Below the pieces are notes generated by a model. That model searched no databases. It had not been told where the DNA came from and saw nothing but the letters and a program-made list of their open reading frames with translations. DNA of 57,052 bases from the NCBI GenBank assembly GCA_024451685.1, contig JAMXCW010000002.1:173541-230592 (forward strand), read 5' to 3'. This document shows, one piece after another, positions 14,602-35,011 of the stretch; position 1 is the stretch's first letter; each line of letters opens with the position of its first letter. The stretch comes from Candidatus Bathyanammoxibius amoris (lineage in GTDB: Bacteria > Planctomycetota > Brocadiia > Brocadiales > Bathyanammoxibiaceae). A program made the translations under genes and the position numbers.

Positions 14602-15405
14602 CTAGTCCCCATCAAACGCCACACTCACTTTGTCCCCCCTGGAGCAATTTAGTGATTCGCTTGCGCTGCCGCAGTTTACGGCCACCTCGAGATGTCCGGA
14701 GCTGCCAAAGAGCGCGAGCGGCTCGCCCGGACGGCCGTCCTGATATGTGGTGCTTAATTTACCGATTTTCTTGCCGCCAACAGTTACAGACGAGACGTGC
14801 GATTCAGACCTTCTAACCAGACCATGGTCAATGTTGGTAATCAGGTTTCCGAAATGGTCCACGTGGATCACCTCTCCGACCAGGGTGCCGTCTGGAGAGG
14901 TCTCGGGTGCAGGAAGGTTCACCTTCTTCAACAATCCTTTCAGGCTGCCCCCCAACTCCTCAGGTTTAACGCCCAGCGACAGGTGCGCGGCAACGGGTGC
15001 AAAGACGTCCCTGCCGTGAAACGTGTCACTTATTTCAGGCAGAAAAAACTCCGGGTTAGAAACCTCCACCAGTGACAGCACCTTTTCCCGGGCCACAATT
15101 GGTCCGAGGATACCGTTATCGGGTGCGAGGAAGATGTATCTGTGCGTCTGAACGCACACAATCTTTCTCTCCCCCCCTACGCCGGGGTCCACGACGGCCA
15201 CGAAGATAGTGCCGTCCGGAAAGAATTTGTAGGAAGAACTTAGCAAGAACGCACCCCCCATGACGTCTTGCGGCCGGACGCCGTGGCAGAGGTCTATTAC
15301 AAGTGCCCCGGGGTTGATACCGGCGATGACGGCCTTCATCGTGCCGACGTAGCCGTCGTCGAGGCCGAAGTCCGTGAGCAGGGCTATCGCTTTACCTTTA
15401 GACAT
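14602..15405 (-). CDS. SAM hydroxide adenosyltransferase (DUF62 family)
   Basis: A 267-residue protein of the SAM hydroxide adenosyltransferase/chlorinase-fluorinase family, whose common bacterial members hydrolyse S-adenosylmethionine to adenosine and methionine. The opening ALLTDFGLDDGYVGTMKAVI, VVDPGVGG and LAPDNGILG are family hallmarks, and DHFGNLITNI begins the C-terminal domain. The reaction is cytoplasmic; its physiological purpose is unclear even in studied species. It stands alone, 79 bases after a radical SAM gene on the same strand. Confidence 0.88.
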   Translation of the reverse strand: MSKGKAIALLTDFGLDDGYVGTMKAVIAGINPGALVIDLCHGVRPQDVMGGAFLLSSSYKFFPDGTIFVAVVDPGVGGERKIVCVQTHRYIFLAPDNGILGPIVAREKVLSLVEVSNPEFFLPEISDTFHGRDVFAPVAAHLSLGVKPEELGGSLKGLLKKVNLPAPETSPDGTLVGEVIHVDHFGNLITNIDHGLVRRSESHVSSVTVGGKKIGKLSTTYQDGRPGEPLALFGSSGHLEVAVNCGSASESLNCSRGDKVSVAFDGD

Positions 15406-15484
15406 TTTCCCAGAAACTTCCCCCTACAGGGATGGGGTGGTCCCTTGCAAGGAGCACGGCATAGCCGTGCCCTACCCCCCGTTC

Positions 15485-16522
15485 TTAGATACTTCCCACC
15501 ATCGGAAATGGATGGTCACAGAAACGGCACTTCTTGTCCTCAAGTCCCACTATGTTCACGTAGTACCCGAGCCGTTCTATGAGTAGTTGTGCGCAGTTTG
15601 CGCAATACGTATTCTCGCCCGGGTGGTCTGCCACGTTCCCTATGTATACGTAGTTCAGTCCCGCATTCCGTCCTATGTCCCAGGCCTCCTCCAGCTTCTC
15701 CACGGGCGTAGACGGCAGGTGTGATAAATCCAAATAGGGATGGAACCGGGTGACATGCCAGGGCGTATCCGCTCCCAGGTTTTCTTTGATGGTCCCGGCA
15801 ATCTCCTTTAGCTCCTCCGGGCTGTCGTTATAGCCGGGAACTACGTTTGTTATTACCTCCACGTGCATGTCCCACTTATTCTTTGCGCGTATTGTGGCAT
15901 CAAGAATGGGCCCCGGGTCTTTTATCTTTGCCACCTCTTTATAGAAGCGGCTGCCGTCGAATCTTCCCTTAAAGTCAACGCGGAACGCGTCAAGATAAGG
16001 GCCTATAGCGTCCAGCGCCCCGGCCTCCACGTAGCCGTTTGTAACAAAGACCGTATAAAGTCCCTCTGCCTTTGCCAGCTTTGCGCCGTCAATGGCGTAT
16101 TCCATCCATATAACGGGCTCGTTATAAGTCCATGCGATACCCTGGCTACCGCTCTTCTTGGCATTGTTAACGAGCTGTTCGGGTGAGAGTGTTTCTGTTC
16201 TCTCGGCGGACTTATCCGCCACCGCGTGGGCAATCTGCCAGTTCTGACAGTCACCGCATCGCATGTTGCAGCCCAGCGAGCCTATGGAGTAGGCGGCGCT
16301 GCCGGGGTAGAAGTGATACAGGGGCTTTTTCTCGATTGGGTCAGCACATACAGAGGAAACACGTCCGTATATGAGTGAATACAGCTTGCCGTCGACATTT
16401 TGCCTTGCCCCGCAAAGCCCCAGCCTTCCGGGCGCAATTACACAGCGATGCGGACAGAGAAAACACTGCAGCCTGTTGTCCCCTCCGGCCGGCTCATAAA
16501 ACAGGGCTTCGTGTTTGAACAT
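15485..16522 (-). CDS. AmmeMemoRadiSam-type radical SAM enzyme (AmrS-like)
   Basis: A 345-residue radical SAM protein related to pyruvate-formate-lyase activases. Its cluster motif is CNMRCGDC (Cys85, Cys89, Cys92; CxxxCxxC). An N-terminal zinc-like set (CFLCPHRCVI and CGARQN) and a C-terminal CANC...CRFC ribbon match the AmmeMemoRadiSam system enzyme. AMMECR1 and Memo partners, which give the system its name, are not in this window. The ATG follows the upstream MBL-fold gene's stop by one base (TAAGATG), so the two are translationally coupled. Confidence 0.85.
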   Translation of the reverse strand: MFKHEALFYEPAGGDNRLQCFLCPHRCVIAPGRLGLCGARQNVDGKLYSLIYGRVSSVCADPIEKKPLYHFYPGSAAYSIGSLGCNMRCGDCQNWQIAHAVADKSAERTETLSPEQLVNNAKKSGSQGIAWTYNEPVIWMEYAIDGAKLAKAEGLYTVFVTNGYVEAGALDAIGPYLDAFRVDFKGRFDGSRFYKEVAKIKDPGPILDATIRAKNKWDMHVEVITNVVPGYNDSPEELKEIAGTIKENLGADTPWHVTRFHPYLDLSHLPSTPVEKLEEAWDIGRNAGLNYVYIGNVADHPGENTYCANCAQLLIERLGYYVNIVGLEDKKCRFCDHPFPMVGSI

Positions 16523-16523
16523 C

Positions 16524-17264
16524 TTACTTATAAGTTGGGACTACGATCTCGGTTTCGTCGGGGAGTGTGTCTTTGCTTACCGTCATGGTATCCCCCCCGA
16601 GAACCCGGACGTTTTCCTTGTCTTTAAGAAACCGCTTAACCCCGAACAGGGTAAATTTGCAGTCGGGCGTCTTGAAATGCATGGGTATTACTACGCTCGG
16701 TTTCAGCTGGTCTATAACCGACGCCGCCTCCAGGTATTCTATTGTGTACGCGCCGCCCGTGGGTATAAACAGTACGTCCGGCTTCCCTATGGCCTCTATC
16801 TGCTCCTTACTGAGCAGGTGGCCAAGGTCGCCAAGATGAACTATCTTCAGCCCGTCGACGTTAAACACAAAGACGGAGTTCTTCCCGTCTCTTCTGCCCT
16901 GGACGTCATCATGATACGTACCAACGTTGTAGATTTCTATGTCTTTTACGGTCTCCTTTATCGTCTGCCAGCCGCGTCCATGAAAGTCTTCGCCTCTCAG
17001 TATAACGGGATTGTTTGTATAAGGACGCACGTAATTATGGTCAAAGTGCTCGTGGCTGATGGTTATTACGTCGGGCATGACGTCGGGCAGGTCGTAGCCC
17101 GTCTCCTCACCCATAGGGTCTGTAAGCAACTTCGTGCCCTGGGACGACTCTATCAGAAAGCATGAATGTCCAAACCACTTTATAGTAACCTCGCCCGACG
17201 CGTGAACTACGCCACACCAAAAAATTAAACCAGTAAATAATACCAGCCAGAATAGTTTTTTCAT
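16524..17264 (-). CDS. Secreted MBL-fold metallohydrolase (UPF0173-like)
   Basis: A 246-residue metallo-beta-lactamase-fold protein. An N-terminal hydrophobic segment (LFWLVLFTGLIFWCGVVHA) predicts export. The metal-binding HxHxDH is at 71-76 (HEHFDH), with further ligands likely in HLGDLGHLL and in VVIPMHFK. Domain layout resembles the L-ascorbate-lactonase-like/UPF0173 group, which hydrolyse small molecules of mostly unknown identity. It lies between a Cys-rich microprotein gene (stop one base before its ATG) and the radical SAM gene, both tightly coupled. Confidence 0.8.
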   Translation of the reverse strand: MKKLFWLVLFTGLIFWCGVVHASGEVTIKWFGHSCFLIESSQGTKLLTDPMGEETGYDLPDVMPDVITISHEHFDHNYVRPYTNNPVILRGEDFHGRGWQTIKETVKDIEIYNVGTYHDDVQGRRDGKNSVFVFNVDGLKIVHLGDLGHLLSKEQIEAIGKPDVLFIPTGGAYTIEYLEAASVIDQLKPSVVIPMHFKTPDCKFTLFGVKRFLKDKENVRVLGGDTMTVSKDTLPDETEIVVPTYK

Positions 17265-17559: not shown

Positions 17560-19179
17560 TTATTTTTCCTTATTGTATCTATAACCCTGGGCTATGGGCA
17601 TTCTCCTGCCATGCCCGAAAGCCTTGGACGTTATCCTCAGGGCAGGGGGGGCCTGCTCCCTCTTATACTCGTTTTTATCAATCATTTCAATGACATGCCT
17701 GACCGTTGGCTCATCATAACCCATAGACACGATTTCATCCACAGTCTTCAACTCTTCCACGTACGCCTTCAAAATGCCGTCCAGCGTGTCATACTCCGGC
17801 AGGCTGTCCTGGTCGATCTGGTTGGGCCTGAGCTCGGCAGATGGAGCCCTTGTAATGATACCCCTTGGGATAATTTCTCTGTCACGGTTGATATAGTCTG
17901 CAAGCTCGTAGACCATGGTCTTGGGTACGTCTGCTATTACCGCAAACCCGCCGGAGAGGTCACCATAAAGGGTGCAATAGCCGCAGGCAAGCTCACTCTT
18001 GTTACCGGTAGCCACCAATAGGTGGCCGAATTTGTTGGATAAAGCCATGAGTATGTTGCCCCTTATCCTGGCCTGGATATTCTCCTCCGCCAGGCCGGGT
18101 GAAGTGCCCATAAACGCGTCAAACAAGTCCTCCAGGTACTTGTCATACAAACCCTTGATGGGTATCTCACTCAGGGTTATGCCCAGGTTCTCTGCAAGTT
18201 TTTTTGAATCCTCGACACCCTCTTTTGAGGAAAACGGTGAAGGCATTGTCACGGCTGTTACGTTCTCACTGCCAAGGGCCGCAACCGCCAGAGGCACCAC
18301 TACCCCCGAATCGATGCCGCCGCTAAGGCCGACAATCACCGTCTTGAACCCGCACTTTCCCGCATAATCCCTCAGACCCAGCACCAGGGCCTTATAGACG
18401 GCCTCTATGGGTTCGACCTGTTCCGCCGGCAGCTCCTTCAGCGGCCCTTTAAGGTCTACCACCACCAGATCCTCTTCAAAATCCCTGGCCCTGGCCACCA
18501 GCCTGCCCCAGTGGTCTAACACGCAACTGCGACCGTCATAGACCAGCGTGTCGTTTCCGCCCACCTTGTTCACGTACACAAGGTCGACGTTGCAGGATGC
18601 CGCACACCCGGAAAGGACCTTCACTCTGGCCGCATAATCGTCCATCGAATACGGAGTGGCAGCTATGTTTATAATCAGCCTCGCGCCCTGACTTATCAAC
18701 CTCTTTACCGGGGCCGGGTCTCCAAGTAACTCATCCCCGATAGTAATGCCGATGTTCCTACCGTTAAAATGTATCGTAGAGAGGGCCGGGCCTTGCTCAA
18801 AGTACCTGTCCTCATCATAAATGTCATAGGAGGTTAGCACGGATTTGTGGTGTACGGACGTTATCCGGCCGTATTCTATAAACGCCGCGGCATTGTAGAT
18901 GGTCTTTGAGCCCTTGTTCTTATCTCTGTCAACAAAACCGACTACGGCGGCTATGCCCGAGGTCTTTGAGGCCACCATCTCAAGGGCCTCAAGATTCTCT
19001 TGTATCAGCTTCGGGTTTTCAAGGAGGTCTTTCGCCGGTGAGCCCATAACGGCCATCTCCGGGAATACGACCAGGTCCGCCTCAAGACGTTTGGCCTTTT
19101 CTATGGCCGTCGTGATGAGTTCAACATTCTTATCGAACGCCGCCACGGTAGGGTTAATTTGTGCCAGTGCAATCTTCAT
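17560..19179 (-). CDS. nadE: Two-domain NAD+ synthetase with a defective glutaminase site
   Basis: A 539-residue enzyme that amidates nicotinate adenine dinucleotide to NAD+. The N-terminal nitrilase-like domain should release ammonia from glutamine using a Glu-Lys-Cys triad. Glu41 (FPEM) and Lys112 (HHKSVL) are present, but the usual ICED motif reads IGDE, with Gly148 (codon GGG, 18736-18738) in place of the nucleophile. The synthetase domain is intact, with VGLSGGIDSG, TGNKSELACGYCTLYGD and the C-terminal RRMPIAQGYRYN. It probably works with free ammonia. It follows pncB after 4 bases, so the operon is for NAD salvage. Confidence 0.92.
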   Translation of the reverse strand: MKIALAQINPTVAAFDKNVELITTAIEKAKRLEADLVVFPEMAVMGSPAKDLLENPKLIQENLEALEMVASKTSGIAAVVGFVDRDKNKGSKTIYNAAAFIEYGRITSVHHKSVLTSYDIYDEDRYFEQGPALSTIHFNGRNIGITIGDELLGDPAPVKRLISQGARLIINIAATPYSMDDYAARVKVLSGCAASCNVDLVYVNKVGGNDTLVYDGRSCVLDHWGRLVARARDFEEDLVVVDLKGPLKELPAEQVEPIEAVYKALVLGLRDYAGKCGFKTVIVGLSGGIDSGVVVPLAVAALGSENVTAVTMPSPFSSKEGVEDSKKLAENLGITLSEIPIKGLYDKYLEDLFDAFMGTSPGLAEENIQARIRGNILMALSNKFGHLLVATGNKSELACGYCTLYGDLSGGFAVIADVPKTMVYELADYINRDREIIPRGIITRAPSAELRPNQIDQDSLPEYDTLDGILKAYVEELKTVDEIVSMGYDEPTVRHVIEMIDKNEYKREQAPPALRITSKAFGHGRRMPIAQGYRYNKEK

Positions 19180-19183
19180 TGTT

Positions 19184-20587
19184 TCATTTCTTTATCGTAA
19201 TCGCCTGGGATTTATTGGCCTCTTTAAGGCCCTCTTCCGTATGTCTTCTGAGCTCCTCGAGCCGCTCACTCTTTCTTACGGTATAAGCTTGAGAGCTCCT
19301 GACGTCCTTAAGCCCCTCAGGCAGACGGGATATAGACTCTCTGGCCCTGTCCTGGATCTCTTTTATACCGGGCAGGTCTACTGTAATCTCCCCCTTCTCA
19401 ACGACACGCTCCAGGAGGGGAACTCCCCCGCATGTCTCATTTTCCAGACAAAGTACGTCGTGCGTGTAAACACCGTTCCTGTCAGATAACCGGCAGACCT
19501 GTTTCCTTGAGGGATAAAAGACCTTGTCCTCGCTGAACTTCATCCTTGGTGTCATCTTACCATCCCGTTCCTGCTCCACAAGTTTGTATATGCCGCCAAG
19601 GGCGGGCTGGTCCCTGGAGGTCACCATCTCCGTGCCGACCCCGAAGATGTCTATCGGCGCGCCCCCCTTGAGGAGTTTGTCTATAAGATACTCGTTAAGG
19701 TCGCCACTTGCCATGATTTTTACGTGAGTAAGGCCGTCGTCATCCAGTATCTTTCTGACCTTCTTGCTCAATTCCAGCAGGTCGCCGCTGTCAAGCCTGA
19801 CGGACAGGAGCCGGTCCTTTGTGACTACCCGTTTTGCAAGGTGTGCACCCCTGACGGTGTCGTAGGTATCTATAAGCAGCGCTGTATTCTCAGGAAAGAC
19901 CTTGTAGAAGCGGCGGAACGCCTCTTCCTCGGTATCAAAGGCCATGACCCATGAGTGCGCCATGGTGCCAAGGACGGGTATCCCCAGTTCGCGCCCGGCA
20001 AGCACGTTGGACGTGGAGGTACACCCGCCGATAAAACAAGCCCTGGCCGCAAGCACCCCTGCCTGCGGGCCGTGCGCCCTGCGGCTGCCAAAGTCGGTCA
20101 CCTCCCCGCCCCTGGCCGCAAGCACCACGCGGGCCGCCTTGGACGCCACCAGGGTCTGGTAATTTATCGTCGCCAGTAGATACGTCTCCACCACCTGGGC
20201 CTCTATCATCGGCGCGGTCACCCTTAATAGCGGCTCCTCCGCAAAGGCCACCGTGCCTTCAGGCATGGCGTACACGTCTCCGCTGAAACGGAAATCCCCC
20301 AGATAATCAAAAAATTTCTTCCCCACCCCCTTAAACGACGGATGCCGTCTCAGATAGTCTATGGAACCCTCAGAAAACCTCAGCGTCTTTAAATAATGAA
20401 GGGCCTGTTCAAGCCCCGCCGCAACCAGAAACGAACGGTTTTCCGGCATCTTCCTCACAAACAGCTCAAACGTGGCCCGGGTGTTTACATCATTTTGAAA
20501 ATACCCGGCCGCCATGGTAAGCTGGTACAGGTCCGTAGCGAGACCGATGTTGTCATCTGTAATAAATAGGGATTTTGGTTCTCTCAC
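19184..20587 (-). CDS. pncB: Nicotinate phosphoribosyltransferase
   Basis: A 467-residue enzyme making nicotinate mononucleotide from nicotinate, PRPP and ATP. The opening LATDLYQLTMAAGYF, FGSRRAHGPQAGV with the phosphorylated-His context, and VRLDSGDLLELSKKVRKILDD are typical of the bacterial type II-like form. The start is GTG at 20587. A good promoter lies just upstream (20626-20654), leaving a leader of roughly 30 bases. It is the first gene of a two-gene salvage operon with nadE. Confidence 0.94.
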   Translation of the reverse strand: MREPKSLFITDDNIGLATDLYQLTMAAGYFQNDVNTRATFELFVRKMPENRSFLVAAGLEQALHYLKTLRFSEGSIDYLRRHPSFKGVGKKFFDYLGDFRFSGDVYAMPEGTVAFAEEPLLRVTAPMIEAQVVETYLLATINYQTLVASKAARVVLAARGGEVTDFGSRRAHGPQAGVLAARACFIGGCTSTSNVLAGRELGIPVLGTMAHSWVMAFDTEEEAFRRFYKVFPENTALLIDTYDTVRGAHLAKRVVTKDRLLSVRLDSGDLLELSKKVRKILDDDGLTHVKIMASGDLNEYLIDKLLKGGAPIDIFGVGTEMVTSRDQPALGGIYKLVEQERDGKMTPRMKFSEDKVFYPSRKQVCRLSDRNGVYTHDVLCLENETCGGVPLLERVVEKGEITVDLPGIKEIQDRARESISRLPEGLKDVRSSQAYTVRKSERLEELRRHTEEGLKEANKSQAITIKK

Positions 20588-32561: not shown

Positions 32562-32795
32562 ATGTACACAATATCTGGAAATGACCCAAAAATAAGCCTC
32601 TCAATAACAGGGATGAAATGTGTATCCTGCGCAGGCAAGATAGAAAAGGCCCTGCTGGAAGTACCCGGCGTGGAGGAAGCACAGGTAAACTTCGCCACGG
32701 AGCAGGCCACTGTAACCGGAAGCGCAACACGGGAGGCACTCGAGGCGGCAATTGAGGTGCTGGGCTACAATATAAAGAAAGAAAATGCAGGATGA
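32562..32795 (+). CDS. copZ: Copper chaperone, HMA domain (CopZ-like)
   Basis: A 77-residue single heavy-metal-associated domain with GMKCVSCAG (CxxC) that can carry Cu(I) to the pump or to CsoR. A 96-base stretch is identical to the HMA segment of the next gene. Its stop overlaps the next ATG (ATGA). An AGGAA ribosome site precedes the start. Confidence 0.88.
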   Translation: MYTISGNDPKISLSITGMKCVSCAGKIEKALLEVPGVEEAQVNFATEQATVTGSATREALEAAIEVLGYNIKKENAG

Positions 32796-32944
32796 CAAAT
32801 AAACAAAAGACAGACCTGTCGATAGCAGGAATGAGGTGCGCTTCTTGTGCAGGCAAGATAGAAAAGGCCCTGCTGGAAGTACCCGGCGTGGAGGAAGCAC
32901 AGGTAAACTTCGCCACGGAGCAGGCCACTGTAACCGGAAGCGCA
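32631..32944 (+). repeat. 96-bp perfect direct repeat shared by copZ and the second copA
   Basis: 32631-32726 and 32849-32944 are identical over 96 bases, offset 218. They encode the conserved part of the HMA domains, after the CxxC. Flanking bases diverge. A recent gene conversion or domain duplication fits; assembly collapse is an alternative. Confidence 0.9.
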
Positions 32945-35011
32945 GCACGGGAGGCGCTCGAGGCGGCTATAACGGCATCAGGTTACAGTACAAAAGATGA
33001 AGCAAAGAAAGAGCTCCCGGAATTATTTACCCCGGCAAGGCGGCTTATTCTCTCCGTCATCTTAACCGTTCCGGTCCTTGTTATAGCCCTGTTCATGCTG
33101 GAGTTCCCGAACTCCGATTACGTCCAGCTCGTTTTAACCACCGTGGTGGTATTTGGTGCGGGCTCCGAATTCTTCACAGGGGCCATTCGCCAGCTCCGGT
33201 TTTTAAGGGCCAACATGGACACCCTGATAGCCATGGGCAGCGGTACCGCCTACACATACAGCGCATTAGGGCTTATGAGCGGTGGCGGGGACTTATATTT
33301 CAAGAGCGCAGCCATGATAATAACCCTGGTGCTCCTTGGCCGTTATCTTGAGGCAAATGCCCGGGCAAAGACCACCAGGGCCCTGGAGGAACTGGCCTCA
33401 GTAGCGCCGCCGACGGCCGCCTGCATGAGAGACGGCAAAGAGGTAGTGGTAGAGGCTGGTGAGCTTAGGCTGGGAGACAGGGTAATCATAAAACCGGGCG
33501 ACAGGATCCCCGCTGACGGCGTAGTGACAGAAGGACAGACCACTGTAAATGAGTCTATGCTCACGGGAGAAAGCATCCCCGTTGAGAAAGTAAAGGGTGA
33601 TGAGGTACAGGCAGGGACGATTAACAATAACGGCAACATCGTCTTTAAGGTGGACAAGCTGGGTGAAGACACCACGCTCGCCCGCATAGTCCGGCTTGCG
33701 AGGGAGGCCCAGGCGTCAAAGGTGCCGACAGAGTCACTCGTTGACAGGATAGCCGGAGTCTTTGTGCCCCTCGTATTGGCCGTAGCCGGAGCAACCACAC
33801 TGGTCTGGCTCTATCTTGGCCATCCGCTTCCGTTGGCACTCAGCGCGTCCACAGCCGTCTTACTGATAGCCTGCCCGTGTGCGCTTGGGCTTGCCGCCCC
33901 TACTGCGGTTGCGGCAGGGATAGGGCGCGCCGCGGAGATGGGCATACTGATAAGAAACGCCCAGAGCCTGGAAGATGCCTCGGGGCTGAACACCTTGATA
34001 TTCGGTAAAACAGGCACAATAACCCGTGGCGAGACCGGTGTCACAGACTTTTATAACGCCTCGGACATGCCCGAAGACGAGCTGCTCTCTATCATCGCCT
34101 CCGCCGAGACGCCCTCGGAACATCCCCTCGCGCGGGCCATGATAGAGTACGCCACGAAGAGAAACGCCACTATCAAGACCGTGACAGACTTCGAGGCCGT
34201 CAGCGGGGAAGGGATAACCGCCGACCTGAACGGCACAAGAATTATTATCGGCAACGAAAGGATGTTGAGAAACAGGGATATAGATACCACTTCCGTTAAT
34301 AACAAGGTCTCAGAAATGAAAAAGGGCGGTAAGACACCCGTCTACGTAGCAACTGACGGGCGCGTAGTCTCCGTCTTCGCGCTTCAGGACGTCCCGCGGG
34401 AAAAGACGGGCGATGCCATCGCGGCGATAAAATCTTTCGGCATAGAACCCGTTATGTTGACGGGTGACAATGAAGCCACCGCCCGTGAGATAGCGAAGCA
34501 GGTCGGGATTCAGAGGTTCAAGGCGGGGTTGAAACCGGAAGAGAAGGTGGCCGAACTACGCCGGGAAAAGGATAAGGGGAAAAAGGTCGGCATGGTAGGC
34601 GACGGCATAAACGACGCCCCCGCGCTGGCTGCCGCGGACGTCAGCTTTGCCATCGGTACGGGGGCAGACGTGGCTATAGAGACGTCGCAGGTCACACTGG
34701 TAAAGGGAGACATAAAGAAGGCCGCCGAGGCCGTGGCCCTGAGCCGGCAGACGATGAGGATAATAAAACAAAACCTCTTCTGGGCCTTCTCATATAACAT
34801 TGTGGCCATACCACTTGCCGCCACGGGATTTCTGAACCCCATGATAGCGGCAGGGCTCATGGCCTTCAGCTCTGTACTTGTCGTGTTTAATTCACTCAGG
34901 CTCAGGGGGTACCAACCGTCGTTTGGGATGACCCCCGGTGCGTCAACAAAGAGTCCATTGAAATGTTGTAATCTGAATAAGTCTGACGTGAACGTTTTCG
35001 GAAGGAGGTGA
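32792..35011 (+). CDS. Second copper P1B-type ATPase, catalytic Asp replaced by Gly
   Basis: A 739-residue pump homologue with one HMA domain (GMRCASCAG), CPCALGL in the ion path, TGES, HP (SEHPLARAM), and [22 protein letters not shown]. The phosphorylation motif reads IFGKTGTIT instead of DKTGT: residue 405 is Gly (codon GGT at 34004-34006; GAT would be Asp). All other P-type motifs are intact. As read it cannot form the phospho-enzyme, so it should not transport. Same operon as csoR and copZ. A sequencing error at one base is possible. Confidence 0.93.
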   Translation: MTNKQKTDLSIAGMRCASCAGKIEKALLEVPGVEEAQVNFATEQATVTGSAAREALEAAITASGYSTKDEAKKELPELFTPARRLILSVILTVPVLVIALFMLEFPNSDYVQLVLTTVVVFGAGSEFFTGAIRQLRFLRANMDTLIAMGSGTAYTYSALGLMSGGGDLYFKSAAMIITLVLLGRYLEANARAKTTRALEELASVAPPTAACMRDGKEVVVEAGELRLGDRVIIKPGDRIPADGVVTEGQTTVNESMLTGESIPVEKVKGDEVQAGTINNNGNIVFKVDKLGEDTTLARIVRLAREAQASKVPTESLVDRIAGVFVPLVLAVAGATTLVWLYLGHPLPLALSASTAVLLIACPCALGLAAPTAVAAGIGRAAEMGILIRNAQSLEDASGLNTLIFGKTGTITRGETGVTDFYNASDMPEDELLSIIASAETPSEHPLARAMIEYATKRNATIKTVTDFEAVSGEGITADLNGTRIIIGNERMLRNRDIDTTSVNNKVSEMKKGGKTPVYVATDGRVVSVFALQDVPREKTGDAIAAIKSFGIEPVMLTGDNEATAREIAKQVGIQRFKAGLKPEEKVAELRREKDKGKKVGMVGDGINDAPALAAADVSFAIGTGADVAIETSQVTLVKGDIKKAAEAVALSRQTMRIIKQNLFWAFSYNIVAIPLAATGFLNPMIAAGLMAFSSVLVVFNSLRLRGYQPSFGMTPGASTKSPLKCCNLNKSDVNVFGRR

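Follow-up and report, generated by a model that had tools for sequence, protein, structure and literature searches.

A fused NAD synthetase lacking the glutaminase nucleophile in Candidatus Bathyanammoxibiaceae and its predicted dependence on free ammonia

Results

The nadE locus

The window, i.e. the whole 57,052-nucleotide stretch of DNA analysed here, comes from a genome of Candidatus Bathyanammoxibius amoris (2.07 Mb in 26 contigs, 95% complete). It contains a complete open reading frame for a two-domain NadE (Table 1), which matched the NCBIfam model NF010588 with 650.6 bits (cut-off 479) and PDB entry 5kha with an E-value of 4e-128. Matches to PF00795, PF02540 and NF010588 all exceeded the curated cut-offs, giving the fused CN_hydrolase and NAD_synthase architecture. 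The gene follows pncB on the same strand after a 4-base gap, and the two likely form one NAD-salvage operon; the pncB-nadE order was found in all seven relatives from the same family and in at least nine loci from sister families. A conserved block of genes also lies beside nadE at 14602-17264 (- strand), encoding a SAM hydrolase-like protein, an AmmeMemoRadiSam-type radical SAM enzyme and a metallo-hydrolase, and its order is kept in most family relatives.

Table 1. Features of the nadE locus in the window.
Feature	Position	Strand	Evidence
nadE, fused NAD synthetase with inactivated glutaminase domain, 539 aa	17560..19179	-	NF010588, PDB 5kha
Glutaminase domain (CN_hydrolase, nitrilase), residues 2-244, predicted inactive	18448..19176	-	PF00795 3e-26
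Gly148 codon GGG, nucleophile position (Cys176 of M. tuberculosis NadE)	18736..18738	-	
Glu41, triad acid/base, kept	19057..19059	-	
Lys112, triad lysine, kept	18844..18846	-	
Ser47; Tyr in Cys-type enzymes (Tyr58 of M. tuberculosis NadE, tunnel constriction 1)	19039..19041	-	
Thr175; Cys-type enzymes have an invariant Ser here (S-A-S-P motif), family members Thr, Asn or Phe	18655..18657	-	
NAD synthetase domain, residues 262-510, intact	17650..18396	-	PF02540 3.9e-75
ATP pyrophosphatase P-loop SGGIDS, residues 286-291	18307..18324	-	
pncB, nicotinate phosphoribosyltransferase, directly upstream of nadE	19184..20587	-	NF006696 581 bits

Loss of the nucleophilic cysteine

The nucleophile of the NadE glutaminase is a Cys (PMC6946656). 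When the protein was aligned by HMMER to the solved NadE structures 5kha, 4f4h and 3n05, the segment GITIGDELL fell opposite their ICED motif, with Glu41 and Lys112 in triad register, which confirmed the original prediction that these two residues of the Glu-Lys-Cys triad are kept and that Gly148 occupies the position of the nucleophile. The triad is incomplete in the same way throughout the family, which comprises five genera: the seven relatives that carry the gene (65-80% identical) have IGDE or IGEE at the nucleophile motif in place of the canonical ICED, and the codon at the nucleophile position was GGG or GGA in all eight family genomes. Besides the window, Gly was found in 9/9 family rows of the comparison (seven genomes, two of them represented twice) and Cys in 151/151 other NadE rows (sister Brocadiales families, Planctomycetota families across the phylum and loci of other phyla, with a few rows being one gene entered twice). 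Chance is excluded as the cause of this split.

It had also been predicted that a single sequencing error was unlikely to account for the GGG codon, and a check of whether relatives share the Gly had been proposed. The codon is two changes from TGT or TGC, and all seven relatives carrying the gene have Gly, a family-wide pattern that rules out both a sequencing error and a lone pseudogene. We also looked for a nearby Cys that could have taken over the role of nucleophile, the outcome that would have spoken against the prediction. There was none within the IGDE/IGEE segment of any family member, and another Cys as nucleophile was ruled out, as none lies near Gly148 in the family.

A separate substitution was observed elsewhere in the window, where a Cu-type P-type ATPase (32792-35011, + strand) has GKTGT instead of the phosphorylation motif DKTGT (codon GGT at 34004-34006). 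Its six closest family homologues (59-76% identical) have Asp (GAC/GAT) and, unlike the family-wide Gly of NadE, this Asp-to-Gly substitution is a one-base change private to the window genome, which may represent either a recent inactivation or an assembly error.

Decay of the glutamine pocket

Columns were considered conserved when they were at least 90% conserved outside the family (43 in the glutaminase domain and 81 in the synthetase domain). Of these columns, the clade has lost 12 of 43 on the glutaminase side and 2 of 81 on the synthetase side (Fisher p = 5e-5), and the same test on sister clades f5, f3 and f4 gave 0-2 losses in the glutaminase half. The synthetase core thus retained 79/81 conserved columns, and its P-loop SGGIDS is intact, as had been predicted.

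Losses were concentrated at the glutaminase pocket and included Tyr47, Pro116, Cys148, Asp150, Trp151, Ser173 and Ser175; Tyr118 and Glu123 of the YRE loop and Pro176 are still present. The lost Pro116 immediately precedes the YRE loop, Ser175 adjoins the constriction Pro, and Trp151 would lie in the region of the glutamine-tunnel gate residue (Trp179 in the human enzyme, Phe180 in M. tuberculosis). The roles of these pocket and tunnel residues (constriction 1, gate) were taken from PMC6946656, and their assignment is putative in that positions were mapped by their distance from the triad residues. Gly148 is followed by an acidic pair (D/E then E) that is conserved in the family. The short loop that follows the nucleophile position was rejected as a diagnostic feature, since the intact Cys-type enzymes L002, L032 and 5kha have similarly short loops.

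Because the triad Cys and the pocket residues have been lost, the protein does not belong with the active glutamine-dependent NadEs, and the glutaminase of this Gly-type NadE is predicted to be unable to use glutamine. The automatic label "glutamine-dependent NAD synthetase" would be wrong on its nitrogen donor.

Family placement and phylogeny

One genome of the window's family (G004) has the same NadE as a contig (L005) from the MAG RIFCSPLOWO2_12_FULL_50_35, a member of Ca. Bathyanammoxibiaceae, which is a deep-branching Brocadiales family with key anammox genes (PMC9723696). The window genome belongs to this family, as it shares the family of that MAG and encodes hydrazine synthase. The hydrazine synthase alpha model PF18582 was matched in the window genome at 3e-19; matches occurred in this and five other family genomes and in 0/14 control genomes. 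Hydrazine synthase and the placement in an anammox family indicate that the window organism most likely lives by oxidising ammonium. Sister anammox families, including Brocadiaceae and other Brocadiales families, keep the NadE Cys.

In a maximum-likelihood tree, the eight Gly-type NadEs formed a single clade (SH-aLRT 100) nested within the Brocadiales NadEs (support of 88 for all of these together and of 81 where the clade joins families f3 and f4). As judged from sequence comparison, Gly-type NadE is the ancestral Brocadiales gene of the pncB-nadE locus and descends vertically from Cys-bearing ancestors. The most parsimonious account is that the Cys was lost once, at the root of the family.

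Other NadE copies and routes to NAD

The only further full NAD_synthases found in the family were the intact copies in the window genome (G000) and G004. Six of the eight family genomes showed Gly-type NadE only, including G006 (96% complete) and G007 (94%), although the family genomes are MAGs and the absence of a second NadE is provisional. The second NadE of the window genome (contig C14, 14012-15673, - strand; L002, 1423-3117) is a glutamine-type enzyme of 564 aa with an intact ICED motif, is ~47% identical to the dead copy, and within the family is shared with G004 only. It grouped with an Omnitrophota sequence in the maximum-likelihood tree and was probably acquired horizontally. The genes around it are common to both genomes, which speaks for a gene that genuinely belongs to them and against contamination. 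This copy looks like a partial re-gain of glutamine use and, given its presence, NAD in the window genome may not come chiefly from the dead NadE.

A second, divergent Cys-type NadE was also observed in a sister-family Brocadiales genome, G027 (L112; contig C57, 23781-25421). It fell outside the Brocadiales clade on a long branch, and its placement is unsure. Brocadiales may thus have acquired additional NadE copies on more than one occasion.

NadV, which serves the nicotinamide route, was absent from the family genomes, ruling out NAD supply through this enzyme, and NadD scored above its cut-off in 6/9 genomes; thus, the step from NaAD to NAD is needed. Since six genomes show no other NadE, NAD synthesis there would have to run on ammonia. 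A general abandonment of glutamine amidotransfer was ruled out, because the catalytic Cys is retained in nearly all of the family's class I GATase loci that were read (assigned by motif and length to the TrpG/PabA, CarA, GuaA, PyrG and HisH types); the Cys motif was not recovered in L124.

Retention of the dead domain

All eight family genomes keep a conserved glutaminase domain, so that Gly-type NadE is not a single-domain type N enzyme, and the nadE reading frame is open in each of them. Approximately 100 of the 248 positions in this domain are invariant within the family. For the least saturated pairs, dN/dS in the glutaminase half was 0.098 (G003-G007) and 0.087-0.107 (to G006), compared to 0.05-0.064 in the synthetase half; over all computable pairs, the values for the glutaminase half were 0.04-0.29, with dS saturated for many pairs and several distant pairs saturated or undefined. 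The dN ratio of the two halves was 1.2-2.5 in the family, relative to a sister median of 1.16 (5-95%: 0.97-1.57). The dead half is under purifying selection that is somewhat relaxed compared to the sisters but far from absent.

An AlphaFold2 model built from 23 sequences (mean pLDDT 77) showed the expected nitrilase and synthetase folds, and a Foldseek search with this model placed fused NadEs on top (5kha, TM 0.77). The YRE loop had a pLDDT of ~50 in the dead protein compared to ~70 in the intact sister control L068, which is a weak hint only.

Discussion

We consider it very probable that the enzyme studied here is a Brocadiales type F NadE whose glutaminase was inactivated once, in the ancestor of Ca. 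Bathyanammoxibiaceae, and which now uses ammonia with its glutaminase domain kept. In that ancestor, the nitrilase-type glutaminase would have been disabled when the nucleophilic Cys and the glutamine pocket were lost. The synthetase half would adenylate deamido-NAD with ATP, and amidation would then be accomplished by free ammonia, presumably drawn from the bulk substrate that anammox cells handle. Free ammonia is the most likely nitrogen donor of Gly-type NadE, given that fused NadEs also accept it (PMC6946656), that the synthetase half is intact and that six genomes show no other NadE. The dead domain would be kept mainly for packing against the synthetase, through an interface of C-terminal loop and helix, and its remaining channel may perhaps still lead ammonia to the synthetase site.

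The original prediction had proposed an ammonia-dependent NadE that retained its large domain. This proposal gained support from the joint decay of the pocket, the family-wide Gly, the status of the gene as sole NadE in six genomes and purifying selection, with the ammonia-dependent activity itself being predicted from these observations. The accompanying suggestion that such an enzyme suits an ammonium-rich niche held only in part: it agrees with membership of an anammox family and with hydrazine synthase, but the sister families keep the Cys and the window genome has a second, intact NadE. Bulk free ammonium in the anammox cell would make loss of the Cys tolerable. However, since sister anammox families have not lost it, an ammonium-rich metabolism is better regarded as permission for the loss than as its cause.

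Several other explanations were weighed. The original prediction had named a new binding role as an alternative, and the dead domain could have taken on a regulatory or ligand-binding function (such as glutamine or NAD sensing, or PII docking) and been kept for it. Purifying selection and the many invariant positions agree with such a role, and PII is known to bind and regulate dimeric NadE-Gln in Azospirillum (PMC7196632). Nevertheless, we regard it as rather unlikely, since neither a gene for PII nor one for another regulator was recognised next to nadE, where the conserved neighbours are pncB, the metallo-hydrolase and the radical SAM enzyme, and constraint on the glutaminase half is below that in the sisters. 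Structural packing would account for retention of the domain without any new function, and a dead domain retained as structural partner of the synthetase is the simpler explanation. It is also unlikely that the old glutaminase domain now acts as a dedicated entry point or regulator for free ammonia, an open funnel that would suit an anammox cell and couple NAD synthesis to the catabolic substrate. Under that scheme, the change to smaller residues at constriction 1 (Tyr to Ser) and at the nucleophile position (Cys to Gly) and the loss of the gate Trp would open the old glutamine tunnel; given the low confidence of the YRE loop with only 23 sequences, we make no claim on tunnel geometry.

The intact ICED-type NadE on contig C14 and its counterpart in G004 would fit a Gly-type gene that is a decaying, replaced copy, but this is very unlikely for an enzyme that is the only NadE in six family genomes, with an open reading frame in all eight, a fully conserved synthetase half and dN/dS well below 1. 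Two-subunit NadEs are known (PMC3376133), and a glutaminase acting in trans, as in the Thermus enzyme, might dock on or beside the dead domain. No convincing candidate subunit was found in the family genomes: the stand-alone nitrilase-family protein of most of them resembles an omega-amidase (ICYDLRFPE), its gene has a comF-like gene instead of nadE as its neighbour, and neither G006 (96% complete) nor G002 yielded a copy. The dead domain already fills the docking surface, and a trans-acting glutaminase is highly improbable. Finally, that the glutaminase is still active, with the conserved acidic pair after Gly148 or a water standing in for the Cys, is scarcely credible, as pocket residues besides the Cys are lost and nitrilase-superfamily amidases work through a Cys thioester.

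The proposed inactivation of the glutaminase in place, with a return to ammonia, can be compared to several known systems. Gly-type NadE resembles the type F enzymes of A. baumannii (5kha), B. thailandensis (4f4h) and M. tuberculosis in domain order, fold, synthetase, P-loop, extended C-terminal loop and the Glu and Lys of the triad. It differs from them in having Gly for Cys and in the loss of the constriction-1 Tyr, the Trp after the nucleophile and the pocket Ser. With the single-domain, ammonia-dependent NadEs of E. coli and Salmonella (type N; PMC3376133) it would share free ammonia as the sole nitrogen donor, but unlike typical type N enzymes it keeps a full glutaminase domain and interface elements. 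M. tuberculosis NadE C176A (3sez, 3seq, 3sdb and 3szg) is likewise a fused NadE without the nucleophile, and these mutants fold and bind synthetase ligands; they are engineered single substitutions, whereas the loss in Gly-type NadE is natural, old and accompanied by pocket decay. The mammalian mitochondrial carbamoyl phosphate synthetase CPS1, a urea-cycle enzyme, keeps a glutaminase-like domain that is dead through loss of the catalytic Cys (Ser294) and takes ammonia from its surroundings (PMC4655335). Both enzymes retain a dead glutaminase-like domain, and free ammonia is the predicted donor for Gly-type NadE, but CPS1 is an unrelated enzyme with a class I amidotransferase domain, making it a parallel and not a relative.

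In the literature, which was covered in part, we found no earlier report of a fused NadE whose glutaminase is naturally dead, nor of a link between anammox and such an enzyme, and a fused NadE that turned ammonia-dependent while keeping its glutaminase domain appears to be new here. The mosaic of NadE forms has been attributed to genes being lost or transferred horizontally, with no additional fusion or fission events (PMC3376133), so that in the published scenario the donor switches through loss or transfer of whole one- or two-domain genes, in contrast to the in-place inactivation of the glutaminase proposed here. With the Cys retained in close sisters and an intact copy gained by two of its genomes, the clade offers a natural experiment for asking under what conditions NAD synthesis can do with free ammonia, and what keeps dead amidotransferase domains in place.
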